A DNA stretch of 64,000 nt from Meloidogyne chitwoodi (taxonomy: Eukaryota; Nematoda; Chromadorea; Rhabditida; Meloidogynidae), in NCBI GenBank assembly GCA_015183035.1, contig JACZZP010000005.1, positions 2,418,001 to 2,482,000 of the forward strand. The letters are read 5' to 3'. The position numbers and the translations under genes are program-made. Below the pieces are notes generated by a model that searched no databases, was not told the DNA's origin, and was given only the letters and a program-made list of their open reading frames with translations. Below, piece by piece: positions 187-64,000 of this stretch (positions are counted from its first letter, which is position 1; every line of letters begins with the position of its first letter).

Positions 187-690
187 TATATTTTTTTTAA
201 TTAATTTTTGAATAAATACAATTGTTAATTTATTAGCTAAAATGAATTTTAGCTTGCAAAAATATTATCGCAACAACAATAGACTCCAAATATATTATTC
301 TATTTATTGACAGACTCTTATAATTTTGAAAATAAATTAATGCCTATTAAATAAAATTTATCAAAAATCAACTAAAAATTGTTGTCTTAACTAATTTTTT
401 AATTCTTCAATAATTACTAACTAGCAAAGGTCTATTGTTGAGATCAACCTAGAAGATCGAAAGCATAGATATCACCAAAATATCAACACTAAACTTTTTT
501 GAATTTTAATGTTGACATTTTGGTTCCAATCTGTAGGGTAATAAATCTTAAGGGTTTCGATAGGTCGAACAATTTATGTTGTCGTAAAATTTAAGAAATT
601 TAATGACAAAAATTTTGGACAATAAAATTACCTATTTAGAAGGAAAAACCTTCAAAAATATTTAAATTCCCTAATATTAAAATAAAAAAA
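187..690. other. intergenic stretch without a gene
   Basis: No coding exon is supported here. A hairpin of the dispersed TTTTTG(T/C)AAG family lies at 233-267 on the minus strand, with stem AGCTAAAAT/ATTTTAGCT. Around 450-535 there is a degenerate relative of the small inverted-repeat element seen at 26104-26187, sharing CCAAAATATCAACACTAAA. Confidence 0.5.
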
Positions 691-3600
691 TTAATCAAAA
701 TTAATATCAAACAATTCAGACGTTAACAATTCAAAATTTTCATCTGACATTAAATCGCGTTCATTAAAAATTTTAATAATTTCTGATTCTGTTGTAGAAT
801 TGAAAAAATCAGAATCTTTAAATATATTTATTTATTAAAAAATAAATTCTTTTAAATTTACCATAAACAGGCAAAAGACCAGCAACTTCCAATGCTGCTG
901 GTACAAATGTTGAAGTTAATGTTCCACCAATATAAAGTCCTTCTAAAAAAATAAATTTAAAAATTACCTAATTAGATATTTAAGAAAAATGGGTGAAAAA
1001 ATTAATAAAACAATTTATGGGCATATCACTTAAAACTAGAAAGAAATTTTAGCCTTAAAAATTCTAGGCTTACAAAAATACGAAATCTACAAGGTCCATT
1101 GATTTCAGAATATAATCTAAACGTTATTAAAAAAAAATTTTTGAAAAATTTGATATTATGCAAATAAAAAACTCAAAACTCTCTTCCAAATAACACACAT
1201 TAAAAAATTAAAAAATAAATAAACCTTTTGAAGCTTTCCTTGGAAAAAGAAAAAGAGTTACAAATTCATTCAAATAATTAATTTGCTCATTATCATTTAC
1301 TTCACTTTTATTAAATTCTTTACTTCTACAAACAAATAAATTATGTGCAATGCCTTTTTGAATAAGAAATTTTATAATTTTTTCTACTGACCTTTTTAAA
1401 AATAAAAAATTAATTTTAATTATTTTTTGTATGTTTTACCTAGATATTAGTTCAATACAATTTTTATTATTAATTTGAAATACATATGCTGGCAAATACC
1501 AATTTGGTCGTTGAAGAAGGTATAGCCAATTATATTTTGTTGGAATTACCTAAATTTAATATTTTAAAATTAACTATAAACACATGGGTATAGAGGAATT
1601 TTTTTACTATTTTTTTATTATTTTACTTTATTTTCTATCCACATTTAAAAAATAAGTCAAATCAAATTCAAATAATTTTATCAAATATTAGAAAAAATTT
1701 GAATTTGGCCCATCTCAATATTAACCCAAAAATTCCATCTTCTCATTTTAAGGGTCAAAATTAAATAAAAAATATACTTTTAATGTTTTTTCCATAATTC
1801 CTCCTTTACAAGACCAAAATAATGTTTGCAAATGTAAATGATTTACGCTGGCATGTGCCAATAATCCATTAAAAATAATTAAAAAATTATTATCCTCAAT
1901 TAAAAGCATTAATTCTATTGACATTTTAATAGCTTCAAAATTAAGTATTTGGGGCAAACAATTTTTTGGTGATGGAATAAGAAGAGAATGTCCGATAGAT
2001 AATGGACTTGCATTTATAGCAATTAAACTTTGAGAAGAATTTTGATTAGAAATTGAATTTTCTTTTGTAATTTTATGCATGTGGAATAAACACTGAAAAT
2101 TTAAAAAATATTAAAAAATTGTTTAAATATGTAGTTAATTTTATTTAGGTATTTTTAATTTTTTAGGGTACTTTTAGTGATTAAAAAAATAAAAAGTTCA
2201 CAATTTTTATTAAAAATTTTTTTATAAATTTAAGTTTTAAAAATTAATTTTCCAAATTTTTAAACCTCTTCTTGTTTCAATTTTGTAAAATTCCAGAGTT
2301 TTTCATCAAAAGGCTGGCAAACACTTTCAAATTCCATCGGTTTTCTTCTTTTTCTGCAACGATCTTCGTTTAGCTTAAACAATTTATAAAATATTAAAAT
2401 TTATAAAAGCCTTAGAATCAGAACTAAATTAACTTTTTTAATAAAACAGAATATAATCAAAATCGTAATAAATCAGAACAAATTAGAACATCAGAACATA
2501 ATGAAAATCAGAAAAACATAGAATAAAAATCAGAACATAAGAAAAACAAATCAGAACATCAGAACATAAATGAAAATTAGAACAAAAATCAGAATATCAA
2601 AAATCAGAATTTTAGAAGAATCAGAAAATCAAGCCAGAATAATAAGTACCATTTACACTATTTCGTTAACTTTGCTTGATCTTCAGGCTCAAGGAAGGCT
2701 TATTTCTCCAGTTTTTAATTAATATTAATTAATTTGCTAAATATTGTAATTTAGCGTGATAAAAATACCTAAGTAAGAAAAGCGATGTTGTCGAAACTTC
2801 TCTAATATTTTTGGAAGCCAATATTTTCTTAGGCTAAATTCTCATTTCACGTAAATTTGTTTAATAATTAAATTAGTACTTAATTAGGTCAATATTTTTA
2901 ATAAATTTGGTTTCAGAACAAGATCATTACTGTTTAAAAGTCAACACACTCATAGAGATGACTGAGTTGAACGATCACACTTTCGAAAATGTGGAAATAC
3001 TCTCATATAAGAAAACCCTTGAAAATCGTAAAAACTATAGGGGAAAGTAAGCTCATTTTAGCTTATTACCTAGGCTGCTCTCCAATATTAAAAATAGATT
3101 AAAGTGATAAATACCAATTTAATTATTCGAACAAGTTTATTTAAATTTTATATATATAATAGCGAATGTTTCAAAAAAACATTTCATATAATTTTTATAT
3201 TACATTCCTTTGTTAGTCCTTTCTCGAGTATTTCACTTAATATTTTTGTAAGTCAAGCAGTGCTTAGGCTAAAATTTCTCGAGTCTTTTTTCAAGTAACT
3301 TTGAAGAAAAGGTTTCTTTTATTTCTTCTGATTAAAAAATGTTCTCATCAAAATAAGAAAAAGATTTTTCTTCCCTAATCAATGTATATAGATACAAGTT
3401 AATTTACAACGTATTAAATTGTAAAATTAATAAAATATATTAGTAAAAATGGATTTAATACTTTATGTGTTTAGACTTCTCGTTGTATTATTTTTGTAAG
3501 TCTTAGCTTTTCCTAAGACTAAATATTTAAAATATTTTTTATTTTTCACAAAATTCAATATATTTTATATAAACCATTTAGAGTTAAAAAATTCAAATAA

Positions 3601-3951
3601 ACCAAAGAATTAATTTTAAAACTACACACAATTTAAAATAATTAAAAAATAAAAACCTGTAAACAAATGTTATATTGTCCTTCCAATTTTCGTAATTTGC
3701 AATCTCCAATTTGATAATTTAGAGTTCCCTTTTTTGCAGCAATTTCCCATTGATTTAACAATTTGGATTTGAACTAAAAATTTAATTTTTAAATTATAAA
3801 TAAATTTAAATTAAATAACTCCAATTAATTTTCGTTCATCAGAGCAAATAGAAAGATTAATCAATAAATCTTGATCAGAATATTTTAAAGTTGAAAATGA
3901 TGAAGATGAACAACTTGAATTATTTAAATTAGAATCTTCTTCTGCAACCAT
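691..3951 (-). CDS. GDPGP1: GDP-D-glucose phosphorylase 1 (GDPGP1 / C. elegans mcp-1 type)
   Basis: The family splits GDP-glucose with phosphate into glucose-1-phosphate and GDP in the cytosol and is thought to clear misused GDP-glucose. Eight exons are visible: 3951-3820, 3773-3657, 2373-2266, 2092-1778, 1549-1440, 1391-1225, 942-862 and 815-691. All junction phases agree and give 384 residues; human GDPGP1 has about 385. Landmarks in order are WEIAAKKGTLNYQIGD (residues ~50-66), LNEDRCRKRRKP at the start of exon 3, FDEKLWNFTKL, INASPLSIGHSLLIP, and the HIT/GalT-type motif NHLHLQ with the histidines at about 204 and 206. After that come YNWLYLLQRP and GIAHNLFVCRS. ATG 3951 gives the only full N-terminus. 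The donor of exon 1 (GTTATT) is weak. Intron 2 (1.3 kb) carries three dispersed hairpins. Confidence 0.9.
3401..3520 (+). repeat. Sm-site-like hairpin element, subfamily A
   Basis: The upstream block CGTATTAAATTGTAAAATTA starts at 3410. After a variable stretch comes TTATTTTTGTAAG (3488-3500) and the stem-loop GTCTTAGCTTTTCCTAAGAC (3500-3519). It lies in intron 2 of the GDP-glucose phosphorylase gene, antisense to it. Two simpler family members are at 2804-2837, with the GGAAG variant, and at 3241-3272. Confidence 0.6.
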
Positions 3952-12634: not shown

Positions 12635-12762
12635 TTAAATACAAAGTATTAAATTGTAAATTTAATAAAAAGTTATCAAGCATAATTGTTTTAAGATAAA
12701 TGTAGCTATGTGACCTATCATCATGTATTTTTGTAAGTTTTAGCTTTTGATAGAATTAAAAG
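12635..12762 (+). repeat. Sm-site-like hairpin element, subfamily A
   Basis: Block AAAGTATTAAATTGTAAATT at 12643, then about 60 variable bases, TGTATTTTTGTAAG ending near 12737 and the stem TTTTAGCTTTTGATAGAA, partly decayed. Confidence 0.5.
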
Positions 12763-13104
12763 TTAAATTATTAAAAAAAAAATTTAATTTGAAATTACAG
12801 AAATATTTTACCATTTGGACTGTTCGATTTACAAACATTTTATTATTGCATAAATTGCTTAATATATGATTTTTCAAAAAGTGGATAATTAAAATAATTG
12901 AATTAATCATTAAAAATGATTGATTTATTATTTCTTTTTATTTTTGGATGTCAAAGCATTCTTTGACAAATATAATTATATTTATTTTTTTTTGTTTGGT
13001 AATGCAATAATTTGAAAAAAATAGAAAAGGTGGAAAAACTTGTTTCTTAAATGGCACTTTTTTAAAATCAAAATTTAATAAAATTAATTTAAATTTTTGG
13101 CTGT

Positions 13105-13763: not shown

Positions 13764-13898
13764 TTAGTCTTAGCAAAAGCTAAGACTTACAAAAATATAA
13801 TTTTGATTGTCCGGTATATATATAAAATTCGCAAATACTAATAAATCCATTTTGTCTAATACCTTTTTATTAAATTTAAAATTTAATACTTTGTAAAA
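13764..13898 (-). repeat. Sm-site-like hairpin element, subfamily A
   Basis: On the minus strand the order is block, variable stretch, TATTTTTGTAAG and the stem GTCTTAGCTTTTGCTAAGAC, a perfect 8-bp pairing with loop TTTT. The block on the plus strand reads TATTAAATTTAAAATTTAAT near 13869. Confidence 0.6.
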
Positions 13899-14277
13899 TT
13901 AAAAAAATTTTTGAATCACATAATTTTATTTTTGCATAATAAATAATTTTCCAAAAAGTGGAAAATTAAAATATTTAAATTTAAAAAGTGAGGTATCGAA
14001 TAATTGCCTTTGATATCGAATTTTGTATTTTTGTAAGTCAAATTATTCTTTGACTAAATTAACATATAGGTATTTAGCTATCATTATTAAAAATTAACCC
14101 TATAACTCAATAATTTAAAAAATAATCTTAGAAATCGTCAAAATTTGAATCTTTAATTAATTTATTCTTACAGAACATAAAATTTTAATTGTTGTTATTA
14201 ATTCATACTGTCCTACAGAGTCAAAAATCATAAAATTTGCAATTTTTATTTTATTTTCTAAATTTAAAAAAATTAAA

Positions 14278-14402
14278 TGCAACGTATTAAATTGTACATT
14301 TATTAAGATATTAGACATTGTTAATTGATTTATTTTTAATTGTTTTCCACTTATATATGCATTAAGTATTTTTGTAAGTCTTAGCTTTTGCTAAGATTAA
14401 GT
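14278..14402 (+). repeat. Sm-site-like hairpin element, subfamily A
   Basis: Block CAACGTATTAAATTGTACAT at 14280, variable stretch, AGTATTTTTGTAAG (14366) and stem GTCTTAGCTTTTGCTAAGAT. Three more hairpins without clear blocks are at 14024-14058 (+), 14510-14543 (-) and 14704-14738 (-). Confidence 0.6.
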
Positions 14403-14925
14403 ATGTAGATTGTTTAATAATTTTTTTAATCTTTCCTTCGTTACTATTATTCAGAAAAAAAAATTAAAAAAAAAAAGCTTTTATATTAAATAAAAGATTA
14501 TCAAGAAATTTTAGCCTAAGCAATGCTTGGCTTACAAAAATATTAATTTTTTTATAATTTATTTATTCAATTTTTAATTTATTTTTTTAGCTAATTTATT
14601 AATATATTTGATATTAAACGACTAAAATAATTTTTAGGTTGTCATTGTTTTTATGGGATATAAAGACATTAGATTATTGTCAAAAATGTTAAATCACTTT
14701 TTATTTTAGCCGAAGACATGCCTGGCTCACAAAAATATCGAACGACCTAGAAATTATCAACATATTTCATCACTACTTTGATCCATTTATATAACAGATT
14801 TATTAAACCATTTAATATTAAGCTAATATTTTAGTTTGAAAACTCTGCAAAATAATAGAAAATCAGGTTTTTTCGACATAACTCAATAGAAAAGTTTCAA
14901 TTTCATTTGATTTCTTTGTAATTAG

Positions 14926-22300: not shown

Positions 22301-22430
22301 TTAGTCTTAGCGAAAGTAAGACTTACAAAAATATATAATGTCGTATGAAAACGTATTACACTTAAATCACAATAAATTAATGTCTCATATATCCTTTTAT
22401 TAAATTTACAATTTAATATTTTATAAATTA
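22301..22430 (-). repeat. Sm-site-like hairpin element, subfamily A
   Basis: The plus strand reads TTAGTCTTAGCGAAAGTAAG, then ACTTACAAAAATA, a variable stretch, and the conserved block TTTTATTAAATTTACAATTT near 22396. Confidence 0.55.
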
Positions 22431-22520: not shown

Positions 22521-22665
22521 TTTTAGCCTAAGCAATGCTTGGCTTACAAAAAATATATTAGTCCAAAGTACTGTCAACAGCAACATAAAATTGTAATATA
22601 AATTTATATAAAATATTTTTTCAAAAATTCGATATTATTTAAATAAAATTCAAAAATTTAGGTAA
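22521..22665 (-). repeat. Sm-site-like hairpin element, subfamily B
   Basis: Stem AGCCTAAGCAATGCTTGGCT, then TACAAAAAATA, a variable stretch and the block ATTCGATATTATTTAAATAA near 22628. The same block follows the hairpins at 1047 and 36541. Confidence 0.55.
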
Positions 22666-46200: not shown

Positions 46201-49200
46201 TTTAAAAAAACAACCTTTTAGCTATATTATTAGCAGTTTCTGACTGGGAAGAAGTATCAAGTACTGTATTGTTGGGAACAACTAATTGTTTTTGTTGTTG
46301 TTGGTTTACTAATATTTTGGGTAAATCAAATGTTTGTTGTTGATGTTTTTGCAAACAATTAATTGTTTCTATTGTATTATTTAAATTGTTTGTTGTTGTA
46401 ATTGTTGAATTGGCAGCGGAAACAGATTGTATTAAACAATTATTTGTTGTTTTATTAATTGATGATGATAAAGGAGAAAGTGATGAATTAGGTGTATGTG
46501 CAAGGCTAAGTAAAAGTTTAACGGCAGCTAAATTTTAAAAGAAAATTTTAAAATATTTTGTAGAAGCAGAAAAAATTTTTTTAGCCAAACAGCTAGGGTA
46601 AGATGTTTTTTTGCGGAATAAAATTTGCGGACTTTTTTAATTTATCCACAGAAAAAAATATTTCACAAATTATTTAGCCAAGGAAATAATTAGCTTACAA
46701 AAATAATTACACCAAATAAAAACAACATGCATATTATAAATTAATCAATATAAATATAAACATTTTAAATTAAAATATTTTATATTAATTAAGCTAAGTG
46801 TGTTCTAGCATGTCTCAATAATTTTTAAATTTTGTATAACTTTAATTAAAATGTAAAAATAAAAAAAAAATTTTTGAACGTTAAATATTATTTTATTCTC
46901 CCCTATACCCTATCACAAATTATAAAATTTTTTTTAATCTAATTTTTTGCCAAATTAAAATAAAACAAACATGGAGAGGTTGCCTGAAATGTTGATAATG
47001 AAATATCTTTGCCTTGAAATTCTTGCAAAGCTTCTAAATTTTTAAAATTAAAAAATAAAATATTTAAATTAATTAACTCTGCCACCCTTCAGCAAATTTT
47101 TCTTGTTCACTAGTAACGATTTTAGGAAATAAAATTGTTGAGGGTGTTGGTGTTTCTAGTTTTTGTTGTTGTTGTTGTTGTTTAAGATTTTGTTGTGTTT
47201 GTTGTTGTTGAAAAGAAGATTGATTAATTAAATTAGAAGAAGAGAGATTATTATTGCCTGTTTGTTGAGCGGCAACTATTAATACATAAAATAATATTTT
47301 TTTTAATTTAAAAAAATTTTTTTTTTAAATTTTTAAAAAATGCTTAAAAATAAGAATCGAAAAATTAAAAATTTATTAACAAAATTACTTTATTGAAAAA
47401 AAATTTTTTTAATAAAAAAAAAACGTGGTTATACTACACAAACCCCAAGGCATGGATTTTTTTCTTTTAATCCAAAGGCATTTTTTGGGCGTTATGAAAT
47501 AATTATTTATGGGCAGAATTTTTAATGGATTCAGATCTTTGGTCCGGTCTAGTTAAATAAATTAAATAAATAATCAGAGTCCAGAAAATGATTTTTTAAA
47601 ATTTCGATCTCTTTTAGGTTGTCCATAAATTTAAAAAATTCCATAAAAATTATAAAATAACATTTTTGGTCAGAAAATATTATTTTTAAATTCTCCCCCT
47701 TTTTTACTTTCTTAACTAAATTAAAAAATTATTTAAAAAAATAATTAAATAAAATTAAAATAAAATAAATATTTAGCTAAGAAAAAATGTGTTTTTTTTT
47801 TTAAAAAAGAAAAGGTTATAAAATTCCCCCAACAGATTCTTTAAAATAGAGTTGCGAATATATTCTCAAAAATGTGTAGAAAAAAAAATAAATGATTAGT
47901 CATCTTTTTGTTAAAAAATAAATAGAAGGTATTAAAATGCAACAAAAAAATTTTTTTTTGTTCAAAGAAAAATTTTTTTTTTGATAATAAAAGATTTAAT
48001 AAACATAAAATTGTGATATTTAATAAAATATCTTTTGATATAATAAATTAAAAAAATTAAAATTTATTTAGTCTATTTTTAATTATTTTAGTCTTATTAG
48101 CAAAATAGCTAAAACTAGAGTTGTACACTTTTCTGTATTCCGGAATTATAAATTCTCTTCAGAGCTCTTGTAATAAAGGCCACTTTCTCATGTGATAAAG
48201 ACGCAGAAATTGTGTACAGTTCCGGAAAAGAGCAGGTCATTTGACGTTTCTCTAACCTCTACTATCCACTGGTCAGTTTTTCTGCGTCTTTATCAACGAG
48301 AGAGTGGCCTTTATTACAAGAGCTCTGAAGAGAATTATGTAATTCCGGAATACAGAAAAGTGTACAACTCTACTCTAAATAAACTTTGGTGTGATTAATA
48401 TTAAAATTTTATTTTTATTTTTTATTTGAAAAGTTTAAATTTAACAATTTAATTTAAATTGCCTGCAACCAGAAAAGCCTTTATTTTTGTAAGCTGAACT
48501 TTGCTTCAGCTAAAATTTTATTTAAAATCCTCGATTTTAAATATTTAATAAAATTTACTAAAAAGATGACCAAAAATCAAAAAAAATTTTTTGATCATTT
48601 AGAGTGGATCAACTCAATTTAAAAATAATTAAAAAAAAATCAAAAAAATTCTTTAAATAAAATTTTAGCTGAAGCAAATTTCATCTTACAAAAATATACA
48701 GTAAACTACTACATTTAAAATAATACTGAAAATGTTAAAATAAAAAATAAAATTAAATATTAAAAAGGTAACAATATCTTCTTTTTATTATTTTTTTTTT
48801 ATTAAAAGGGCCAAAATTCTAAAATATTTTTTAAGTCAATTATTTTTAAATTTATTTATTTAAGCGATCATTTTTTAATTAAATTTAATTTTTACAAGAA
48901 TAAAATTTAAAAAAAAATTTAAAGAAAACGCAAATAAAAACGCATCTTTCAAAAGAAAATTTCCATAAAAATCCTAAAAAAAATTTTAATTTTTGATTTG
49001 AATTTTAGCTGAAGCAAAGTTCGGCTTACAAAAATAATTCATGATTACATAGATAACCCAGACAATATTTTTAAATTAAAAAAAAATAATTTAAAAATAT
49101 ATATTAATTAGCCAATTCCTTTTTTAAAAAATTTTGCTTTTTAAATTGCTAATAAATTAAAAATAAATATGAGGGAAAAGCATAAATAAATATTTATAGG

Positions 49201-52200
49201 AACAAGGAACGTAATGGTACGAATATAAAAGGAAAAAAAATAAAAATAAATATAAGAGAGGAAAAAGGGCAAAAAGAAGAGAGAATTTGCCGTTATCTCC
49301 TCTTAATGTGTGAAAAAATAAAATTGAAGAATAAAATTAAAAAATAAAGGTGAGAGCAGAAAAAAAACAATTTTTAATATTTAAGTGTTGTTATGAAAAA
49401 AATTGGGAAAATTGTTTTTAAAATAAATATATATTAATAAATTTCAAAATTAGAAAACAACTAAAATTAATTTTAAATTGAATTTTAGCTGAAGCAAAAA
49501 TGTTCAGCTTACAAAAATAACAAACAATTATGTGGAGGAAAATATTCACAAATTAAATTATTATATAAACCTTAAAATGAAAAATAAAATAAAAATTATA
49601 TATTAACAGAGATTCGAAATAAAGAAAGGCAAAAACATCCAAAATATTTTAAAAGATTAAAAATGCTCTAAATCAGTAGCATTAAATAGGTGGATTTAAA
49701 TAAACAAAATTGGGTTGTGGTCAGGGCTGGATCGAAACTTCGAATTTTCGAAATCGAATATTTTCGATTTGATGAAATTAAATATTACTGCGAAATCGCA
49801 AATATTCAAAAAAAAATTTCGAAAATCGAAATTTCGACCCAGCCCTGATTGTGGTCACACTTGTGCGCAAATTTGAGGTTTTTAACATTTTTTAAGAAAT
49901 TTATTTATTTTTAATTTACATCTTTTAGCTAAGAAACTTCCTTAACTTACAAAAATAAGCCTATTAAAGAACAACAGAAGCAAATCATTAGTTTTTTTTA
50001 CAAATTTTAAAAATAAATTTTAATATAATATTTAATATTAAGCATTTTAGCAGAGTGAAAAAAAGATGTTTTTTCAGGTTTATAATTAGCTAAGAAAACC
50101 TCTTAGCTTCCAAAAATAAACAACAAATCTCCCAAACCGTGATAACATTTTATAGATTTATACCAATTTTTAAATGTATAAATTTAATATATTATTTAAT
50201 ATTAAGCATTTTATAAGGGGAAAAAATATTTTAATTTTTTTATTTATTGTTTTAGTATTAATGCTTACTGTATTCGAAATTATTTTTTATACCCTAGTAA
50301 AAGGCTTAATATAAAATTTTTAAATTGGATTCACTTAAAATGAGCTAAAATTTAAATATAATACACTGATGGCGCCCAATTTTGTGGTATCGTATTTTTG
50401 TAAGCTAATTGTTTTTTAGCTAAAAAAATGAAACTAAGAAAATTGATTAAAAAAAAGAATATTAAAAAAATTAGCTTAAAAATTTAATTTGTAAAATTGG
50501 TAAAAAATTAAAATAAAAAATGAAGAAACAAAAATATAAAATGGAGAGATAGAGCAAAAATCTCAACTAAACACATGTATTTTATTTAAAAACCACCCTC
50601 TATAAAAGCGCACCTTTGGAAAATTAGTCAAAAATTTTTTAAATATAACCCTAATTTAAAAATTTTAAAATAATATTCCAAAAATTATAAAATTATTAAA
50701 AAATAAAAAAACTAACGTAAAATCTTCTCTGGAGAAAGGAGAAGAGATGCTGAATCTAACAAAGAAATGGGCAAAGATAATGGCGATATTCCATTATTAT
50801 TGTTGTTGTTTCCATTAAGAAAAGAGTCATGAGGTTTTAAATTATCTACAAAAAATAAATTAAATTTAATATAATGAAATATTTTGCTTAATATAAATTA
50901 GTTAAAAATTTTAAAAATAAATAGCCACAATACAAAAAAAATGTGTTCTGTCTGGCATGAGTTGTTTATTTTTGCAAGTCAATTTAATTGACTAAAAATA
51001 ATTTTTATTAATAAGACAATTCTTTTACAAGTGTTAAAGTGTCATAGGTTTTTTTTGGTAATTTGTCTCCAAAATTTTGTTGTGCTTTACAAAAAATTTT
51101 CGATTAAATTTGCCTTATTAGTCGCGTGGAAACTAATTTACTTAGACAGCTTGTAAAAAATTTTTATAAAATATTTTGCTTAATATGCATCAGGGTTGCC
51201 GCGGGTTGAGCTCAAGTGTCGGGTCGGGTTTCGGGTCGGGTCGTCGAAATTTCCTCGGGTCGGGTTTCGGGTTTCGGGTTGAGCTCGAATGTCGGGTCGG
51301 GTTTCGGGTCGGGTTTCGGGTCGGGTTTCGGGTCGGGTTAATTTTCATAAATTTCGGGTTTCGGGTAGTATTAGCGCCGCAGGCGAAAATTTTGTATATT
51401 TTTGCCCTTAATTGCCAAAAAGATTTTTTGCGTCGAAGGCGAAATTTTTTGAAAAATTTTGTACTTCAGCTGCCAAAAAATTACATTTTTACACCTAAAA
51501 CAAAAATTTTTTAAATTTGTTAAACCTTTGTTACAACAAAAATTCCCTATTTAGCGCCGCAGGCGAAAAATTTTAAAAAATAATTCCACCTTAGTTGCCA
51601 AAAATTCACCTTTTTTAGCGCTACAGGCGAAAATTTAGGACTTCTAATTTATTTAAAAAATTGCAAAACGAGCGAAAATAAAGTCCGACGGTAATTAATG
51701 TATAAAAAAGGATTTATCCATCAATAGGAATCGAACCCAAATTTTTTATAGAAGTAGACTAACCTACTAACCACTCAACCACAAGCGCACTTACGTTAAA
51801 GCAAATTAAAATAAGAATAAATTTTTCTCTTATTAATTTTTTTCTCTCTCCTCCATGCAAAAGGGTCAGAGAAGTAAAGAGAAAGAGAAGGGTAAAAATT
51901 TTTATAATGTCGGGTATCGGGTAATGTTGGAAAGGTCGGGTCGGGTTCATCTAAATTTTCTCGGGTCGGGTTTCGGGTCGAAAAAAAGGCCGGGTTTCGG
52001 GTTTCGGGTAACCCGCGGCAACCCTGATATGCATTTATTTAAAATTTAAAAAGTAACAATAGATAGTACAAAGGAAAATAAAAATAATAAACCTACTCCG
52101 CATGCGTATTGTATTTTTGTAAGTCAATATTAATTGACTAAAAATAATCACTAAAAATATTCCAATTTTTCTGTTTCAATTTTTCAGTAATTTTTCCCCA

Positions 52201-55200
52201 AAATGTAGAGTATTGTGCATAATAAAAAATTTCGATTCTAAATCTTTTGTCATAAGTGGATTACTAAACTCATACAGCTAATAAAAAAATCGGAAAATAT
52301 TTTGCTTAATATAAATTAATTAAAATTTAAAAAATAAAGATAAGTAAAAAATGAATAATGTCGTTTTTTGTTTTGGCGAAACTGACTTTTTATTTTTGCA
52401 AGTCAATTTAATTGACTAAAAAATAGTTAAAAAAGTTGAGGCAATTTTTCTAAGTTTCAATTTATATCTTTCCTCAAAATATTCACCCTCATTTTTGTTT
52501 TCAATATTTTCTCAATTTAAATATTTTTTCGAGTTTCGAAATAATCAAAAGCTTAGATATTTTTTCAATTCTCTATTAGGCAATCTTAAGCAATTTGGGC
52601 ACACTTTAAATAATCGCAGTGGCAAAGTAAAAACGTGTTTTTAGGGGTTATCGAGGGCGCTGATTACGAATCTGATATCAGTTTTTCCTTATCACTAATT
52701 CTTATCATTTTATCAATTAAAAAAATCAGATTTATAATTTCAAGGGAAAAAGTTTAAAGATCGAAAAGAATATCAATTGTTAACTGGGTAGTGGCGCCCC
52801 AGTTGTTTACGATTGCCCTCATATTAAAAACCAAAGATAAGAAAAAACAAATTAAAGATAAAATTAAAGAAATTAATTTTCACTCAATAAATAATAATTT
52901 TTAATTAAATTAATTTATTTTAATTTTTTACCTTTACTAAAATCCAATTTTAAATGTGTTCTATCTCTAGTATAATTACTAAATCCATTATTGGTTTGTT
53001 CACTATTTAAATCATTATTTAATAATTTTGAAGTAGAGGAGGAGGAGGTAGTACTATTAAAAGAGGAAGAAGAGGTTAAAGAGGTTGTTATTGTTGTTGA
53101 TTCTATTGAGGATGTTGAGAGCATTGGATTAATTAATTTATTATTTATTTGTTCAATTTTTGAATTTTGAAGTTTTTGGTCTGCTAAAAATAAAATAAAT
53201 TTTTTAAATTAAATTTAAAAAATTTTTTTTTAGTTACTCAAACAATATTAATTCATTTAAGCTAATAAAACGGGTTCTTTTGGCCGTCAAAAAAAAATTA
53301 GGTCTAGTAAACATTCTTGAATTTTCAGTTTTTTAGGATGACGTAAATAAAAAAGGGGTCTAAAAAATTTTTGAAAAAATTTTTAAAATTATTTTAAATT
53401 GAATAAAAATTGATTTTAATAAACTGATTGGAGGTTGACCCCAAAAATATAATTGTTAACCTAAAGATAAAAAAATTAGCAAACAATTAATTAATTTTTG
53501 ATAAACTTTTTTTGTTTAATATAAATTAATTTATTTTTAATAGTTTAAGAGTATATTTTGTTAGGGTTAAAATAAAGGGTAAATAATTTATTTATTATTT
53601 TTGCAAGCTAATTTCTTTTAGCTAACATATACATACAAACTCTAAAGTTTGATTTTGGTTAGTATTTTAATTTATTTAAAAAATATTTGGTTCCAAAAAA
53701 GTTTTTTTGATCAAGTTTAGGACCCTGTAGGGAAATAAAGAAGGGTATAAATATTTTTTCAGTTATCTTTTTTTGAAATATATTTAAAAATTAAATTAAA
53801 TGTGTAAATTACTAAAAAATTAAAAAAAATATTTTAATTTAAAAAATTCTAAAATAGGAAAAAAAAATTAAATAAACAAAGGAGGGTTAAAAAAAATCAA
53901 AAAATATAAAAAAATGAATTTTAAAAGAATTTTTCAAAAAAATGTTACAAAGTTAAAAAATAAATTTACAAAAATTTCTTTAAAAAAAATAAAAGAATTT
54001 TTTCTTAAAAAATTTACAAAAAAAACTTCTTTTATTTAATCTAAAACAGAAATTATTGACGTACAGAAGAAGGCTTTTTTCCCATTTTAAATATCTAAAG
54101 TTAATTAATCCCTACAGGTATGCATTAAAAAAACTAAAAAAAATCTTTACACCTTTTCTTACTTTAAATAAAAAAATTGGCTTCAATCCGTTGCCATAGG
54201 GAATTAGAAAAAAATAATTTTTTAATATTTACTAAGAACACTTTGCAAGCAACTTTTTTTTTATAAAAAAAGATATTTTAGGAAATTAATGTAAATATAA
54301 CACATAAAATTTTTTTTTAATTTTAAATTATTAATTTAAGTCTTTAAAAAAAATTTCTTTTGCTAAAAAGGTACTTTTCAATTATAGGCCCAAATGTCTG
54401 CAAGTTTTTATCCGCAATTCTTTATGCTTTATTACTTATTTTGGAAGTGTTTTTCTTAAGGGATTTCAGAGAGAAATTTTTGAAATTGTTACTCATTTAG
54501 TAAAATTTTAATTTTTTAGATTCCTCTGCTTACCAAAAGTTTTTAATAATTTTTAATAATCATTGTTGAAAATATTTTCATAAATATATGTATGTATTAG
54601 AGATGAGCAAAATTGGAAAATAAAATACGAAATCCGAAACAAAATTTAAAAAATAAAAACCTAAATACGATATAAAAATCAACTAAAAACAGAAATACGA
54701 AACTTTCCCATCCCTGATACCTATGTATTTTTTAAATAATCTCTTTGATAAAAAAATATTAGGAAATAAACTTGCGGATATTTGGGTCTATAAAAGTACC
54801 CAAAAAATGAAAAAATAAATTAAGGGTATAAAAGATAAAAATGGGGGCAGTGTCTTCTTTTAAAAACATTAATTAAAGCTGGGCAAGAATATTTTAAAAA
54901 AATTGAATGAAAAAACAAATATTTTATGATTTTAATTCTTATATAGGAACCCAAAAAATGCATAAATTTATTAGACATTTCTAAAAAATTTAGAAAATAT
55001 TTTAATGGTAAAGCTAAAATAAACTACTATTAGCCTGATATCAGGCCCCAAAAATAATCCTTATCGAATTAGAGGAACAAAAACAATTAAATTAATAATT
55101 TTAATAAATAAAGTTGACTAAATAAAATAGCTAACATTAATTAAAATCAATTTTTAATTAAAATTATATAAAATTGCAAAATAACCTACAACTAAGCATG

Positions 55201-55741
55201 AAGTTTTTTAGCTTTTTTTCAGAAAATACAAGTCAGGATATGCACAAAAAAAGTACAATTAAACAAGAATTTGTTGAAAATTAAGTTAACTTAATCCTTA
55301 ATTTTTCGAAAAATATAATGTCATATTTGGCATTTAAATCAAAAAATTCAAAATTGAAAAAATTCCTAAAAAAAAATAAATAAAACTACCCACTTAAACT
55401 TTTGCTTTCTAATTAATAAAAAATATTTTATTTAATCAACTTTATTTACTAGAAAAATAAGAAAACATCGGTGTGTTGTGCGTAGGACGATATTATTTTT
55501 GGAAGCCTAACATTTAGGCTAATAATTCTTTTATTAAATTAGTTTGATAAATTATTTTTTAAAATATCTAGAAAATTCTCAAACTAAGAAATTAAAAAAA
55601 ACCTTGAAAATTAGAATTAACAGTTTTTATTGTATCCAATGCAGATGACGTCATCGCCTCACTTTTAGAGATCTCAGAAGATAAGCAATCAATATTATTT
55701 TTATTTTTTACTTCATTTTGTTCCGACGATTCCAAATACAT
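43263..55741 (-). CDS. jun-1: Jun-type bZIP transcription factor
   Basis: Jun proteins bind TGASTCA or TGACGTCA as dimers. Exons: 55741-55603, 53183-52932, 50845-50717, 47275-47078, 47033-46971, 46527-46215, 45678-45412, 44525-44489, 44441-44311, 43798-43748, 43552-43489 and 43382-43263, in phase, 587 residues. The basic region KRARNRLAASKCRQRKLQRI (~527-546) is Jun-specific. The zipper DLEKQVEDERKRERELQAEV continues IRLQSVVKSLQEKL; heptad d positions are L-E-L-L-L, so the second leucine is Glu. FAEGWQKALQEF matches Jun's FADGFVKAL segment. The rest is expanded by Asn/Gln/Ser runs. Exon 1 contains TGACGTCA (55646-55653). Introns of up to 3.4 kb carry hairpins and transposons; the end of exon 5 (46971, GTTTGT donor) was chosen to keep phase. 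Confidence 0.87.
44896..45012. mobile_element. hAT-like miniature element with CGAAA words
   Basis: The ends are CAGAGATGTTTCGAAAC and, inverted, CAGAGTTGTTTCG; the interior repeats AAAATCGAAA-type words. No target duplication is clear. A shorter relative (GGGATGGGAAAG...CCCATCCCTG) is at 44151-44218. Both lie in introns of the Jun gene. Confidence 0.5.
48118..48370. mobile_element. TA-flanked miniature inverted-repeat element, 253 bp
   Basis: Terminal repeats of about 95 bp start GAGTTGTACACTTTTCTGTA and are nearly perfect. TA flanks both ends (48116-48117, 48371-48372), as in Tc1/mariner. It lies in intron 3 of the Jun gene. Confidence 0.7.
49722..49847. mobile_element. hAT miniature element with TCGAAA words
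   Basis: Starts CAGGGCTGGATCGAAACTTC and ends CGACCCAGCCCTG. Flanks GTTGTGGT and ATTGTGGT match at 6-7 of 8. It is a close relative of the copy at 21596, in Jun intron 3. Confidence 0.75.
50308..50430 (+). repeat. Sm-site-like hairpin element, subfamily C
   Basis: Block AAGGCTTAATATAAAATTTT near 50303, variable stretch, GTATTTTTGTAAG and stem AGCTAATTGTTTTTTAGCT. Confidence 0.55.
50882..51000 (+). repeat. Sm-site-like hairpin element, subfamily C
   Basis: Block TTTTGCTTAATATAAATTAG near 50882, variable stretch, TTTATTTTTGCAAG and the perfect stem GTCAATTTAATTGAC. Confidence 0.6.
51191..52026. mobile_element. hAT-like element with TCGGGTTTCGGG words and a tRNA-like core
   Basis: Starts CAGGGTTGCCGCGGGTTGAG, ends AACCCGCGGCAACCCTG; perfect 8-bp duplication ATATGCAT (51183-51190, 52027-52034). 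Both arms (51195-51370, 51905-52020) are made of TCGGGTTTCGGG words. The core has four GCCGCAGGCGAAA-type motifs (51373-51635) and a minus-strand tRNA-like sequence (51716-51790). The insertion splits the upstream block of the hairpin element at 52110. Confidence 0.8.
51716..51790 (-). other. tRNA-like sequence with A and B boxes
   Basis: On the minus strand TGGTTGAGTGGTTAGTAGG is an A-box-like D arm and GGTTCGATTCC a perfect B box. It is the counterpart of the sequence at 30220-30295. Confidence 0.5.
52300..52425 (+). repeat. Sm-site-like hairpin element, subfamily C
   Basis: Block TTTTGCTTAATATAAATTAA near 52301, variable stretch, TTATTTTTGCAAG and stem GTCAATTTAATTGAC. The copy at 52110-52145 has stem GTCAATATTAATTGAC and its block lies beyond the hAT insertion, at 51176-51190. 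Confidence 0.6.
52579..52817. mobile_element. Merlin-related non-autonomous element
   Basis: Starts GGCAATCTTAAGCAATTTGG and ends ACGATTGCC. About 120 bp, including CGTGTTTTTAGGGGTTATCG and TACGAATCTGATATCAG, match the terminal repeat of the Merlin element at 61462-62217. The right half has diverged and the target duplication is imperfect. Confidence 0.6.
53508..53630 (+). repeat. Sm-site-like hairpin element, subfamily C
   Basis: Block TTTGTTTAATATAAATTAAT near 53511, variable stretch, TTATTTTTGCAAG and stem AGCTAATTTCTTTTAGCT. Confidence 0.55.
54370..54800. mobile_element. TTGCGGAC-type element carrying a nested hAT fragment
   Basis: Left GGTACTTTTCAATTATAGGC with TCTGCAAGTTTTTATCCGC; right CTTGCGGATATTTGGGTC and TATAAAAGTACC. 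Inside, at ~54600-54717, a word element ends CCCATCCCTG. It lies in Jun intron 1. Confidence 0.55.
55646..55653. promoter_or_regulatory. CRE palindrome in Jun exon 1
   Basis: TGACGTCA is a perfect binding site for Jun/ATF/CREB dimers and lies within the first coding exon (Met-Thr-Ser-Ser codons). Vertebrate jun is autoregulated through a related site in its promoter. Function here is inferred. Confidence 0.4.
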
Positions 55742-57124
55742 TTAGGAAATAAAAAAGAAGAAAATATTTCGGGAATTTAAACTGAAAAAATTAAAAAAAA
55801 TAATGTAAAATTATTAAAAACCTGAGAATGTCAAGAGAAATAAATTTTTGGTTTTTTAGGGCAATCACAGAAATAAAAATAAAATATAAATTGAAAAATA
55901 AAATTAAACGAGTTAATTAATTCCTAAAATGATAATTTTAATTAAAATATAAAGTTTAAGGATTTTTGTAGTGTAGAAAAAGTCCGCAAAAGCAAAAGTC
56001 CGCAAGTAAGAATATCTCGCTTGTAATTGGATAATTTATTTTTTTAACGTTTTTTCTAGCTTTTTTGAACAAAAAAAATTAAAAATATTCTCGTGTGACA
56101 AAAGTAGGTAAACTAGAAAATAGAATCGAGAAAATGTTGTAAATATTTGTAATTTTTAGTTTTGTCAGCAAAAGTCCGTAAATTTTTATCCGCTATTTTT
56201 ATACTTAATATTAATTTTATTTGTAGGAGGACAACACGGGTAAATTATTGAAAGCCTACATATTGAATTTCCGTTGAGGGAATACGAAAAGAAGAAAGAA
56301 ATTGATGCATTTGATAAATTTTAAAATTGCAGATAAAAATTTGCGGACAAACAGAAAAATTAAGAAAACGAGTTTAAAAGACACAATTGAGTATATGAGT
56401 ATTATTAATTATTTAATTTTATAGCTAAGTTTAAAAAGTTTAATTTAATAAATTACCCAACAAAAATCATTAAAAAAGAAAAACGTTTGCTTATTAAATA
56501 GATAAAATTAAAACTTGAATTTTATGACGTACACAAGCTAATCGATAAAAGACGCGTAAACTGCTAATTATTATATATATAGTTGCTATCTAAATAACAT
56601 TTTTAGTACAAATTAAATGTAGAGCAATTTTCTGCAAGTTAAATTAATGTTCTTTGTTAATAAAATTGGAAAGAGTCACGCCATATGGACATTAGAGTCT
56701 GATTGTTATAAAGATAATTTTGGAAATATCTAGCTAACTTTTGAGTCAATAAACTTTTCAATAATTTCATGTAAATTACGAATAGACAAAATAATAAAAT
56801 ATTTGAATCTGCCCAAATTTATTTTGTTAATTGGTCAAATAATTAGCTAAAATAAATTTTAGCTTGCAAAAATAATCAAAAGAGCAGGTTGCAAGCATAT
56901 TCCTACCCTGAACAATAATCTTATAATATTAAAAAAAAATTAGTTTATTTATATTTAACAAGTTGATTTTATCTAAAAATTTGACTAAACTTTTTAAACA
57001 AATGAGATTCACTTAAAAAAGTGAGATATGATCCTGGCTTATCTCAACAAAATAAATTCTTCTGCTAGTACATCAATTTATGAATAAAAATTAATAAATA
57101 AAACAAATTTTTAGTTGAGATTTT

Positions 57125-57262
57125 TGATAAACTTTAATTTAGTATGCATTAATTTATCTTTAAAATTGTTTGAGTATATTAAAATAGAAACATATTTGAA
57201 CTCCGCTTGATCCAAGAGCATCAATTTATTTTTGTAAGCTAAAATTTATTTTAGCCAATTAT
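57125..57262 (+). repeat. Sm-site-like hairpin element, subfamily C
   Basis: Block near 57131 (TTAGTATGCATTAATTTATC), variable stretch, TTATTTTTGTAAG and stem AGCTAAAATTTATTTTAGC. Confidence 0.5.
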
Positions 57263-58129: not shown

Positions 58130-58729
58130 TAAACTTTTTAGTCAATTAAAAATTGGCTTACAACAATATAAAGTGTCGAATGCTGCATGCACAAATTTTT
58201 ATTTTTCAGCTATGTTTAAGCAAATAAATAATTTGTAAAATTTATATTATTAAATTACTCTAAATTATTACGTTAATTTTTTAAAACATATATAATTAAT
58301 TTAATTATGTAAAACAAAAGGGAAAATAAAAATTTACGTATTGAGCACTCAATTTGGAATTCTATATTTTTGTAGGTTGGACTTAGCCTCCAACTAATAT
58401 TTGATTTTTGAGCACAATGTTAAAGCAAGACAATACTCAAAAGTCCAGACTCACCCGTTTTGCTAAATATTTGTTAAAGAAAATGAAATGCCCATTTTGT
58501 CGTTTGTCGAATTGTCGAATTTCTAAAGTATTCCTAACTAGTTGCAGGACAATTGTGCTCAATATTATTTTATATAAAAAGTAGAAATAAGGAAAAGGCT
58601 AGAGGCGAAAGACTGCGTCTTGCGATTAACTGGACATGTCCAGTTAACACAATTTTTGTTTTTTAGTAAAATTTAAAATTTTTGTTATTTTTTAAATGTA
58701 TAATTTTTATTTATTTTTTAGCATTATAA

Positions 58730-60897: not shown

Positions 60898-61461
60898 TAT
60901 TTTTAAAATATAATTTTTGATAAATTTTTTTTTCAATGTTTTATTATATTTTTTTTTATCAGAAATGGAATTTCGGAACCAAAAGTTTTGGAACATCTTA
61001 AAATTTCAAAAGTTAAGGTTATGAAAATTCTAAAAAATTAGTCAAAGAAATTTGACTTGCAAAAATACTAAGAAGATCCCGATGAAAAATTACGTATTCA
61101 TTAATTTTATTAATTTAAAATAAAAATTATTGCTAAAATTAAATATTATTCACATTGATAATTTTACTAAACCAGAATTATTTAATATTTTCAGATGTTA
61201 TCGGAGAGGTTCTATTTTTACGTTGCCCAAGTTTGTTATTTGTTGGGAAAGTTTGCTTAATAAAATATTTTATATTTTGGTTTAATTAATATATTCGGTG
61301 GATTTTGCCTTTGATGCGCGTTGATGTATTTTCTATATATTTTTGGATATCAGCATTGGATGCTGATAAATTTTACTCTGGCAATATTGTTTTTATTGAT
61401 GGATTAAGACATTGAAAGATTTCTGTCTTCAAATATCAGCCTTGAATATCACTATTAATTG
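60898..61461. other. intergenic stretch, hairpins only
   Basis: Hairpins are at 61036-61070 (-), stem GTCAAAGAAATTTGAC, and 61340-61375 (+), TATTTTTGGATATCAGCATT with stem ATCAGCATTGGATGCTGAT. No exon is supported. Confidence 0.45.
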
Positions 61462-62217: not shown

Positions 62218-62818
62218 ATTAATTGTTGATAAACAAATTCAAATTTTTTTCTGTTTTGTCTAGGCAGGAATTGAAAATTTCCAGACCTTAAGAGAACAGA
62301 AATTACAAGGAAAATTAATTTAGTCAAAAGATATTTGACTTGCAAAAATATCAAGAGCTTCGAGAGCTGCAGAAATCATACAAAACTAGAGATACCGATT
62401 TAAGTAAAACATTTAATAAAAAATTTACTATTTTACAAATTTCAAACAAACCAGCACGGAATTAATTTTAAAGTTCTCTCGAAGGTTCTGTCTAAACCCT
62501 TCATAATACTCAAATGTCCTCAAACATTGATTTTGATTTAAATTGTCGACGTGGAAAACGTGTAAGGAGTCGCTCTCTTCTTTCCCCCTTTTCCCTATTA
62601 AGAGAAAAAAGTGAGTGAACAGACAGTGAAAAGTGAAAAAAGACAGTGAGTGTTAGAGAAAAAATAATTTCAACACATGCACTCTCGCGCATTTCTCCCC
62701 TCATGCTTGCACTAAATCACACTTAAAAATGCCTCATTAAGGGGAGGGGAGAGGAGACGTTTTGTATTTCTTTTTTTTCTTAAGCATTCCTTCTTTCACA
62801 TTTTTATTTACCTTAAAA
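62218..62818. other. upstream region of the small acidic secreted-protein gene
   Basis: It holds one dispersed hairpin at 62322-62352 (-), stem GTCAAAAGATATTTGAC, and pyrimidine/purine-rich stretches (62560-62760). No TATA box or exon is clear. Confidence 0.4.
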
Positions 62819-63253
62819 ATGCGTGAAGGCTATCCTCTACCCAAAATTAAATTTTATTTAATTTTAATTTTTTCATTGGTTAATGTAACGGAGTCTTTTA
62901 TTAACGGGGAATGGTCAAATTACAAAGATAAATTAGTTGAAAATGAACAAAATTTGAAAAAAGGTGAAGAAATAGCTTTAGGCGATAATTATGTCAATGG
63001 TGATGAAAATAAAAATGTTGAAATGATTAAAAATAAAAATGAAAAAATTGAAGGAAATGAGAACGGGAATGAATTGTTAAGCGATTTAAATGATACTAAA
63101 GGAGTTGAAAATTTTAAAGAAAAGGATAAGGAAACAAAAAATCAAGATGAGGGAGTACAAGGTGATCAAATATATTTTTTTATTTTTAATAAATTTTGGT
63201 CGTTTTTTTTAGTTCAACAAAGGGTTTTGATTGAAAAGAATTTAAAAATATAA
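62819..63253 (+). CDS. small acidic secreted protein, 127 aa
   Basis: Two exons, 62819-63161 and 63213-63253. The 51-bp intron (GTGATC..TTTTTTAG) is in frame, so retention would still read through. MREGYPLPKIKFYLILIFSL and VNVTES form a signal peptide. The mature part is rich in Glu, Asn and Lys with no cysteines (GEEIALGDNYVNGDENKNVE) and is probably disordered. It has one or two N-x-S/T sites. No family is recognised. Small secreted acidic proteins are common among nematode gland products, but nothing here proves that role. Confidence 0.55.
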   Translation: MREGYPLPKIKFYLILIFSLVNVTESFINGEWSNYKDKLVENEQNLKKGEEIALGDNYVNGDENKNVEMIKNKNEKIEGNENGNELLSDLNDTKGVENFKEKDKETKNQDEGVQGDQIYFFIFNKFWSFFLVQQRVLIEKNLKI

Positions 63254-64000
63254 TAATTTTATTCGCCTATATTCGTAAAAGCATTAAATTAAGAAAGTTC
63301 CTATAATTAAAGGGTCTCTTCTCTTTAAAGTCAAAAATTCCCAAAAAATTTATTAAACATTGGCCAATAAAAATTTACCTAGAATAAAATAAATAGTCAA
63401 AGAAATACTTTGACTTACAAAAATAATCGTTTTATCATTAATTATTCCAACAAATTTATTTTTCCAATAAGTATAAATTAAATCATTAATGGTAAATTTA
63501 ATATTATCAAATAAAAATAAAATAATTATATTAAATTAAATCTAGTCTAATTCAGTTACATAAACCCTCTAATTGAGAGTAATTTTTCTATTTGAATTTA
63601 CCAATTCTGAAAGTAAAATTCAAATAAAATAAATAAAAATTAATTACCTAATTTAGTCTTAGCAAAAGAGCTAAGACTTACAAAAATACAGACACAAAGG
63701 AAAAATTTTCACCATAATGTTGTAACTTCAGTAAATTTAAATAGAAAAATATAAATAATAATTTATACTATACAGTTTTCTTGGACCATGAGATCGCAAA
63801 AATAACAAAATAATTCCCAATTTTAATTCATCTAAAATTCCTTAAATCTCTTAAAATATTTCAATTTTCTTCTCTTCTCTTTTAATTTCACAAAAATATT
63901 TTTTAAAAGGTGAAAACACTCAATTGATAAACAAATTTCCATTCCTTAGCAACTTGTCGGATGAATCTATAAAGCAATTTAAAGAAATAACAATTAATCC
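63254..64000. other. 3' flank with two hairpins, no gene seen
   Basis: Dispersed hairpins lie at 63395-63428 (-), stem GTCAAAGAAATACTTTGAC, and 63652-63690 (-), stem GTCTTAGCAAAAGAGCTAAG. No exon is supported up to the window end. Confidence 0.45.

Follow-up and report, generated by a model that had tools for sequence, protein, structure and literature searches.

The 64,000-nucleotide stretch of Meloidogyne chitwoodi DNA analysed here (the window; C26:2418001-2482000 in a searched genome of 47,477,280 bases and 30 contigs) has a mean GC content of about 25% and carries nearly sixty short hairpins, each joined to a linear motif resembling an Sm site. The question raised by this locus is what such a dense set of elements encodes. 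A preliminary description, made from the letters of the window, proposed an undescribed, multicopy small-RNA family or a hairpin transposon using the same motif. As judged from the sequence, each hairpin closes a larger unit at its 3' end, and the promoter motif, GC-richer 5' segment and block organisation of these units were lacking in that description. A typical unit consists, from 5' to 3', of a promoter-like motif, an AT-rich spacer of approximately 35-40 nt, a GC-richer unique segment of approximately 20-30 nt, the Sm-like site TATTTTTG and the hairpin. The units probably form a family, several hundred strong and clustered, of very short genes resembling those of small nuclear RNAs (snRNAs), with hypervariable 5' ends and a layout like that of Piwi-interacting RNA (piRNA) clusters, which would serve as a guide repertoire; transcription, Sm binding and the guide role are what we infer from this architecture.

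The Sm-like site and the hairpin

The hairpins and their motif lie where they had been noted, as 56 of 57 noted positions fell within 10 nt of a match to a covariance model (R1). The model was built from 100 copies, 38 of them inside the window, so that this recovery is partly by construction. At the cut-off of E ≤ 0.05, it gave 57 matches in the window, on both strands as described; it added a copy at 12939 and missed the one noted at 61340, a deviant starting at 61338 that has its own promoter motif (score 7.5, 86 nt upstream). The density of about one copy per kilobase given earlier needs a correction, as the spacing is uneven, with gaps of 9.2 and 7.6 kb. Exact TATTTTTGNAAG occurs 52 times in the window. 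Three of these matches belong to a tandem repeat of TATTTTTGTA-type units at 40824-41236, which mimics the motif without a hairpin; the other 49 all have a stem with at least five of the first six pairs counted from the second A of GNAAG, compared with none in the reversed sequence.

A wider survey covered a 264-kb piece made up of the window and its surroundings. A stricter finder, which excluded tandem-repeat copies and copies whose hairpin lacks a following A, gave 187 elements there (147 exact, 27 with one mismatch and 13 with two), compared with 17 in the reversed piece (1 with one mismatch and 16 with two) and 19-31, none of them exact, in each of three Markov sequences. The one-mismatch copies exceed their numbers in the reversed piece (1) and the Markov sequences (3-7), and a few of them may be chance matches. 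The two-mismatch copies were left out of most statistics because they are no commoner than in the controls (16 reversed, 16-24 Markov), and the kept set comprises the 174 elements with at most one mismatch. The number of distinct hairpin sequences among the 187 elements is also 174, by coincidence. A plain motif scan allowing two mismatches (282 places compared with 195 expected; 191 with a hairpin compared with 81 in the reversed sequence) was abandoned because of too many chance matches.

The near-constancy of the linear motif was upheld among candidates picked without using it. Selection by promoter, AG...CTAA and pairing only gave 76 candidates, compared with 0 in the control, and TATTTTTG was exact in 72 of them, with one deviation in 3 and two deviations in 1. 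Its G was present in 76/76; the N position was T in 46, C in 18, G in 12 and never A, and the next letter was A in 71/76, the A and G after that letter having been selection criteria. When AG and CTAA were dropped and only the promoter and six pairs were required, 456 places were obtained compared with 80 in the control, with exact TATTTTTG in 95 compared with 0; we take the remaining places to be mostly chance pairings near promoters. Among the 187 elements, the N position was T in 111, G in 36, C in 35 and A in 5. The TTTTTGGAAG copies, stated earlier to match a canonical Sm site, look canonical but are a minority form.

Pairing in the stem was evaluated on 100 copies (99 distinct) aligned by MAFFT with the structure not used. 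In this alignment, 91.3% of the cells were paired, compared with 81.8% after shuffling (0/500 as high) and 8-48% in slid controls, and 77 cells were changed on both stem sides, compared with 29.4 after shuffling. Columns 13-33 were C-G in 57, U-A in 36 and U-G in 5 of the 99 copies. Three of five covariation measures exceed all 500 shuffles, and two do not. The hairpin thus appears to change its letters yet keep its pairing, and the compensatory changes suggest that it is kept as RNA. When the sequences were folded singly, the four outer pairs had a mean probability of 0.81, compared with 0.06 when the inner hairpin was shuffled, and this probability was above 0.5 in 147/174 elements compared with 7 after shuffling. 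The Sm-like site had an unpaired probability of 0.60 compared with 0.51, which is a weak difference. The units have the A-U4-6-G core followed by a 3' stem-loop that characterises Sm-class RNAs.

The promoter-like motif and the variable 5' segment

No promoter is visible when the copies are aligned on the Sm-like site, because the distance varies; the motif was revealed by k-mers and by expectation-maximization (EM). The EM on 174 upstream regions gave a 24-bp AT-rich motif, TTTRCWTAATATTAAATATTTNAA, with a posterior above 0.5 in 163/174, and 138 of these 163 start 84-96 nt before TATTTTTG. A score of at least 5 was reached in 48/58 window units, on which the motif was also trained, compared with 1.3% of random places, and in the 264-kb piece by 115/147 exact, 21/27 one-mismatch and 5/13 two-mismatch copies. 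Genome-wide, the composite TAATAT-N65..94-TATTTTTGBAAG gave 262 matches, some places being counted twice through the variable gap, compared with 2 for the reversed pattern; of the 100 places listed, 73 were on C25, and none lay in the training region, all being on C1-C25. Both the EM motif and the most enriched upstream words are AT-rich and unlike the Ruby motif CTGTTTCA of 21U-RNA loci, which was not itself counted. The term 'PSE-like' (PSE, proximal sequence element) describes the position of the motif only.

The variable segment has a GC content of 0.355, compared with 0.135 in the spacer and promoter, and is the higher of the two in 167/174 elements. Its cores share only 2 of 1564 12-mers, no two cores are identical, and the enrichment of a sub-motif is mild (TGTTG, 25 compared with 9.2). 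A raised GC content without letter conservation suggests that selection acts on composition or diversity and that the segment is not simply neglected. ATG occurs in 75/174 segments, compared with 71.8 after shuffling, which gives no sign of a peptide gene.

The fate of the segment after duplication was followed in pairs of units. In 37 of 161 pairs, selected on a similar upstream flank, the segment identity was 0.54 compared with 0.51 for unrelated units, and the spacer identity was 0.73 compared with 0.59. This test was biased because the selection favoured divergent pairs, in which the partner's promoter makes up the upstream flank. The test was repeated with pairs selected on the sequence more than 230 bp upstream, of which 8/11 were in register (13 elements), two of them looking like common repeats rather than duplications. 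In these 8 pairs, the segment identity (0.53) was equal to the unrelated baseline (0.53), compared with 0.78 for the near upstream sequence (baseline 0.61), 0.82 for the promoter (0.66), 0.82 for the spacer (0.66), 0.88 for the hairpin (0.68) and 0.68 for the downstream sequence (0.61). Pairs selected on the downstream sequence (5/8 in register) do not single out the segment because the near downstream flank (0.60) is near baseline as well as the segment (0.58). The clearest case, that of units 88293- and 90453+ in the 264-kb piece, combines a long identical upstream sequence, unrelated-looking segments and a nearly identical Sm-like site and hairpin. In these few pairs, the segment appears to lose its likeness after duplication, while the promoter, spacer and hairpin keep theirs; it may also change faster than unconstrained flanking sequence, a comparison for which the pairs are few.

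The promoter motif, the unique 5' segment and the blocks move the comparison from SmY and spliced leader (SL) RNA towards piRNA-type loci. The nearest competitor to Sm-type genes is a set of piRNA-like loci without Sm proteins, each giving a short capped RNA of approximately 25-30 nt, with the T-run and the hairpin acting as a signal for polymerase pausing or termination. The promoter motif, the block layout and the unique segments fit such loci, and the succession of a GC-richer segment and an AT-rich block resembles the pausing profile at nematode piRNA loci, as described in the accessible text of PMC6436959. Strongyloides ratti, which also belongs to clade IV, is reported in the available part of PMC9203780 to have clustered 21-22U RNAs whose upstream sequence is AT-rich and whose downstream sequence is AU-rich, with no upstream motif. 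However, the compensatory changes argue for a hairpin kept as RNA, and the G of TATTTTTG in every candidate together with the A after N in 71/76 is more than a pause signal should need. We regard this alternative as possible but unlikely.

Genomic blocks and neighbouring units

The pattern TATTTTTGBAAGCC-N6..20-GGCTAA was found 112 times in the genome compared with 0 in the control, and 100 of these matches, as listed, were on C26 (55), C25 (42), C12 (1), C16 (1) and C17 (1). TATTTTTGBAAGTC-N6..20-GACTAA was found 86 times compared with 0 (C26 68, C25 11, C12 5, C1 1 and C7 1). Only two of the stem types are captured in this way. The bare motif, with 849 matches compared with 309 for the reversed pattern, gives an excess of approximately 540, which is the only estimate of the total. 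Most of the listed copies are gathered in blocks on C25 and C26 (C25:0.12-0.86 Mb and C26:1.80-2.59 Mb among the listed places), with small groups on C12 and C16/C17. In the first 63 kb of C16 and C17, the units stand at near-identical coordinates, and these are apparently two haplotypes of one place. Among four sample stretches of C26, 2.268-2.278 Mb was rich in units, 2.158-2.168 Mb had one unit with a promoter motif (11.3), and no convincing unit was seen at 1.71 or 2.62 Mb. Of eight bare-motif loci on C1, 3 had no hairpin by the finder and the other 5 had promoter scores no higher than 0.9 when measured at the exact motif; only one of these 5 (L008, with an unusually long hairpin) has the usual CTAA after it. 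The low scores and the near absence of CTAA suggest that these loci are chance matches.

The arrangement of neighbours bears on a family of mobile hairpins, of the type of miniature inverted-repeat transposable elements (MITEs). Such a family could account for 12 divergent pairs that recur as modules of 256-334 bp with a hairpin at each end, and the local homology of several modules ends at or near the hairpin ends. However, no target duplication was seen by eye at these 12 modules, and tandem neighbours predominate in the 264-kb piece (104, compared with 35 divergent and 34 convergent). MITEs should be copies that are alike and flanked by target duplications, whereas 174/187 hairpins are distinct here; the stems covary; the listed copies are concentrated in a few blocks of a 47-Mb genome; and the lone motif loci on C1 lack a hairpin (3/8) or have a promoter score of at most 0.9 (5/8). 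The transposon offered as the second option in the preliminary description is disfavoured by the same few blocks, differing hairpins and missing target duplications, and we consider a mobile origin improbable. Divergent neighbours in the 264-kb piece bunch at 195-209 bp (9/35), as if back-to-back promoters were shared.

Table 1. Units and further Sm-like sites with hairpins in the window (figures in brackets are promoter motif scores).
Feature	Span	Strand	Sm-like site + hairpin	Promoter motif	Remark
Unit	233..355	-	233-264	332-355 (6.2)	
Unit	1049..1164	-	1049-1080	1141-1164 (16.8)	
Sm-like site + hairpin	2806..2837	+		weak (2.3)	
Unit	3151..3272	+	3241-3272	3151-3174 (9.5)	
Unit	3403..3522	+	3489-3522	3403-3426 (9.5)	
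Unit	12638..12759	+	12726-12759	12638-12661 (7.2)	
Unit	12854..12970	+	12939-12970	12854-12877 (10.5)	absent from earlier list
Unit	13764..13897	-	13764-13797	13874-13897 (9.8)	
Unit	13931..14057	+	14026-14057	13931-13954 (11.9)	divergent with unit at 13764
Unit	14276..14400	+	14367-14400	14276-14299 (9.3)	
Unit	14511..14622	-	14511-14542	14599-14622 (8.0)	
Unit	14706..14826	-	14706-14737	14803-14826 (10.3)	
Unit	22301..22427	-	22301-22333	22404-22427 (7.5)	
Unit	22523..22643	-	22523-22555	22620-22643 (12.2)	
Unit	23250..23367	-	23250-23281	23344-23367 (7.4)	
Unit	23871..23997	-	23871-23902	23974-23997 (8.2)	
Unit	28086..28207	+	28177-28207	28086-28109 (10.0)	
Unit	28279..28402	+	28371-28402	28279-28302 (12.2)	
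Unit	29161..29281	+	29250-29281	29161-29184 (5.9)	
Sm-like site + hairpin	31570..31601	+		none (best -10.6)	GGAACCG-type repeat 31409-31570 upstream, possibly broken unit
Unit	33349..33465	+	33434-33465	33349-33372 (12.0)	
Unit	33670..33790	+	33758-33790	33670-33693 (12.8)	
Unit	33878..33997	+	33966-33997	33878-33901 (12.1)	
Unit	36262..36391	-	36262-36295	36368-36391 (10.6)	
Unit	36544..36664	-	36544-36575	36641-36664 (10.8)	
Unit	37030..37155	-	37030-37063	37132-37155 (9.6)	
Unit	37270..37387	-	37270-37301	37364-37387 (8.7)	
Unit	37799..37921	-	37799-37833	37898-37921 (9.6)	
Unit	38002..38119	-	38002-38027	38096-38119 (8.7)	short hairpin
Unit	38700..38815	-	38700-38727	38792-38815 (7.2)	
Unit	42975..43093	-	42975-43006	43070-43093 (10.6)	
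Unit	43605..43725	+	43689-43725	43605-43628 (8.4)	
Unit	43925..44052	-	43925-43957	44029-44052 (7.8)	GC-rich hairpin
Unit	44721..44838	+	44810-44838	44721-44744 (12.5)	
Unit	45216..45337	+	45309-45337	45216-45239 (7.1)	21 nt of 5' segment unique genome-wide (≤3 mismatches)
Unit	45802..45917	-	45802-45831	45894-45917 (6.6)	
Unit	46674..46793	-	46674-46705	46770-46793 (8.8)	
Unit	48390..48513	+	48482-48513	48390-48413 (5.8)	
Sm-like site + hairpin	48665..48696	-		not found (0.4)	
Sm-like site + hairpin	49005..49036	-		not found (-1.2)	
Sm-like site + hairpin	49485..49519	-		not found (-0.4)	
Unit	49925..50046	-	49925-49957	50023-50046 (10.8)	
Unit	50086..50210	-	50086-50118	50187-50210 (10.0)	
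Unit	50301..50423	+	50393-50423	50301-50324 (8.8)	22 nt of 5' segment unique genome-wide (≤3 mismatches)
Unit	50883..50995	+	50967-50995	50883-50906 (13.2)	
Sm-like site + hairpin	52112..52141	+		not found (-0.9)	
Unit	52301..52419	+	52391-52419	52301-52324 (12.6)	
Unit	53511..53625	+	53596-53625	53511-53534 (9.4)	
Unit	55408..55522	+	55494-55522	55408-55431 (7.4)	
Unit	56843..56977	-	56843-56874	56954-56977 (5.4)	distance 103
Sm-like site + hairpin	57227..57258	+		weak (3.4 at 57134-57157)	
Sm-like site + hairpin	58138..58168	-		weak (4.3 at 58232-58255)	one mismatch in Sm-like site
Sm-like site + hairpin	58365..58397	+		weak (2.8)	Sm-like site TATTTTTGTAGG
Unit	61038..61154	-	61038-61067	61131-61154 (7.5)	
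Deviant unit	61252..61368	+	TATTTTTGGATA + hairpin 61338-61368	61252-61275 (7.5)	missed by R1
Unit	62320..62439	-	62320-62350	62416-62439 (10.2)	
Unit	63393..63512	-	63393-63425	63489-63512 (5.9)	
Sm-like site + hairpin	63653..63688	-		weak (4.7 at 63753-63776)	

Four open reading frames (ORFs) in series occupy 24788-27137 (+) within the unit-free stretch at 23.9-28.2 kb, and the three of them that were tested had no Pfam match. A transposase-like ORF with helix-turn-helix and CENP-B_N-type domains is present at 59488-59832 (+), and the ORF at 61697-62119 (-), which had no Pfam match at E ≤ 0.01, presumably resembles the zinc-ribbon region of ISXO2-type transposases. A search of Rfam at a relaxed threshold over 36-56 kb gave 6 matches, none overlapping the units by eye. 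A sub-threshold Rfam match to MIR7504 at 49722-49847 (+; 40.2 bits, E 2.7e-4, gathering score 83) is perhaps a long imperfect inverted repeat.

Interpretation and comparison with known systems

In the preliminary description, the proposal of an undescribed small-RNA family, multicopy and with an Sm site ahead of a 3' stem-loop, has good support at the sequence level from the covariation, the near-invariant TATTTTTG, the promoter-like motif at a fixed distance and the layout of the genome's own SmY, and the description as a whole stands in part. The conserved features of the units all fit an Sm-type RNA gene, and the variable ones all fit a repertoire. Transcription by RNA polymerase II with a SNAPc-type factor would start near the beginning of the unique segment, and an RNA of approximately 50-70 nt would end just after the hairpin. 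The Sm ring would sit on AUUUUUG and the hairpin would block 3' trimming; such a ring and a hairpin that blocks 3' trimming are known from SmY, SL RNA and U7. The variable 5' segment would be the working part, most likely through guide pairing with targets, and a cluster would be equivalent to a repertoire like the 21U-RNA clusters of Caenorhabditis elegans, here in a clade that is reportedly without Piwi and 21U-RNAs.

Several observations weigh against this interpretation. The 173 segments compared with 363 kb gave 1413 matches, with 1409 for the reversed and 1605 for the shuffled segments, so that there was no excess and no target in that sequence; both segments tested had no second match in the genome, sense or antisense, with up to 3 mismatches. 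In the stem, the pairs changed on both sides numbered 4 compared with 3.9 after shuffling, the pair types numbered 12 compared with 10.3 (25/500 as high), and the inner pair 15-29 was unpaired in 28 cells. The promoter score was below 5 in 32/147 exact and 6/27 one-mismatch copies, and no initiator (pyrimidine-purine, YR) peak marks a start site. The promoter motif was not found upstream of the genome's own SmY gene or of its U2 loci, of which all but one were scored. Six intact U2 loci, which carry a different upstream block of their own, scored -0.4 to 4.1, three divergent U2 loci measured from the inner word scored -0.1 to 4.8, and SmY scored 2.5. Random 160-nt stretches had 90th and 95th percentiles of 4.1 and 6.8 in the forward and 3.1 and 4.0 in the reversed sequence, against which latter the top U2 values are borderline. 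The units therefore have no snRNA-type promoter in common with these snRNA genes, and what connects them with the snRNA machinery is their position and layout. Finally, a T rather than a purine precedes the core A in 76/76 candidates, and the Sm consensus RAU4-6G, as given in the accessible text of PMC2200864, requires a purine there. The purine was not treated as decisive because the genome's own SmY, ACATTTTTTGGAG, has a C before the core, with the hairpin immediately after. The units are filed as Sm-class-like and not as members of the Sm class.

SL-type RNA genes with many different leaders would likewise combine an Sm-like site with a 3' hairpin in a nematode. However, no conserved splice donor was found within 20 nt before the Sm-like site (GT in 131/173 compared with 141.3 after shuffling; GTA 46 compared with 51.7), and SL1 leaders occur in the genome at 36 places (with up to 2 mismatches; none in the control), of which 34 are outside C25 and C26. 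This explanation is very improbable. The two SL1-leader matches inside the unit blocks are at C25:405100-405121 (0 mismatches) and C26:2311959-2311980 (2 mismatches). Readings as SmY, SL RNA or a plain transposon each fail a test (a match to RF01844 in the window, the GT donor and target duplications at the 12 modules, respectively). Least probable of all are protein-bound DNA landmarks such as sites resembling meiotic pairing centres. The concentration of a short motif, in either orientation, in a few chromosomal blocks speaks for such landmarks, but they would not be expected to have a polar multi-part layout, covariation of the RNA type that includes G-U pairs, or a unique segment richer in GC.

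The guide-repertoire reading of the Sm-type genes draws on three sets of reports, here taken from the accessible parts of the papers. Piwi and 21U-RNAs are absent or largely absent outside clade V (PMC6436959, PMC6468775, PMC9071541), Piwi being lost outside clade V and plectids (PMC6436959, PMC9071541); the Ruby motif is derived from SNAPc sites (PMC6436959); and S. ratti has the clustered 21-22U RNAs described above. In the present genome, 38 Piwi-domain matches, counted regardless of clade, were found, many of which are pieces of one gene. A bolder possibility, which we hold only tentatively and think rather less likely than its contrary, is a Piwi-less nematode with a replacement guide system, in which hundreds of genes, each with a promoter of its own, would give Sm-packaged RNAs with a constant Sm-hairpin handle and a hypervariable 5' guide renewed after each duplication, as an evolving repertoire against mobile or foreign sequence. 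The units make directly testable how clade IV nematodes control their genomes without Piwi; if the proposal is true, it would be a second use of the snRNA-type gene layout for a guide-RNA repertoire. Should the guide role prove wrong, the units would still look like an RNA family of several hundred copies, and the approximately 57 in the window match nothing in Rfam 15 at gathering scores. The family was not found in the accessible open-access literature, including under four letter forms of the motif, which is no proof of absence, and the available main text of the 2025 M. hapla genome paper does not mention piRNA, snRNA or non-coding (PMC12643312).

Among known systems, the C. elegans type I 21U-RNA loci share with the units an upstream motif at each locus, a unique short sequence, large clusters and AT-rich surroundings, according to the available text of PMC6436959 and PMC9203780; the units have their own upstream motif at a set distance, unique sequence and clustering. 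They differ in the motif itself, in the constant Sm-like site and hairpin that follow the unique part on its 3' side, in numbering hundreds and not thousands, and in belonging to a clade reported to be without Piwi. The S. ratti 21-22U RNAs, from the same clade IV, are clustered in the genome and are a proposed piRNA replacement; in the accessible part of that report, they have no upstream motif, unlike the units, and no Sm-like site or hairpin is described (PMC9203780). SmY (RF01844), of which the genome has one match, on C5, and the window none at gathering scores, has the same 3' half, an Sm site followed by a hairpin, whereas the units have no conserved body 5' of the Sm-like site. SL RNA (RF00198) is also a nematode RNA with an Sm-like site and a 3' hairpin, and differs from the units in its conserved splice donor and in the location of the genome's SL1-type genes, which lie mostly elsewhere. 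A similar layout is that of U7 snRNA, an RNA of approximately 60 nt with a target-pairing 5' segment, an Sm site and a 3' hairpin. U7 has one conserved segment and one target class, whereas the 5' segments of the units differ from copy to copy.

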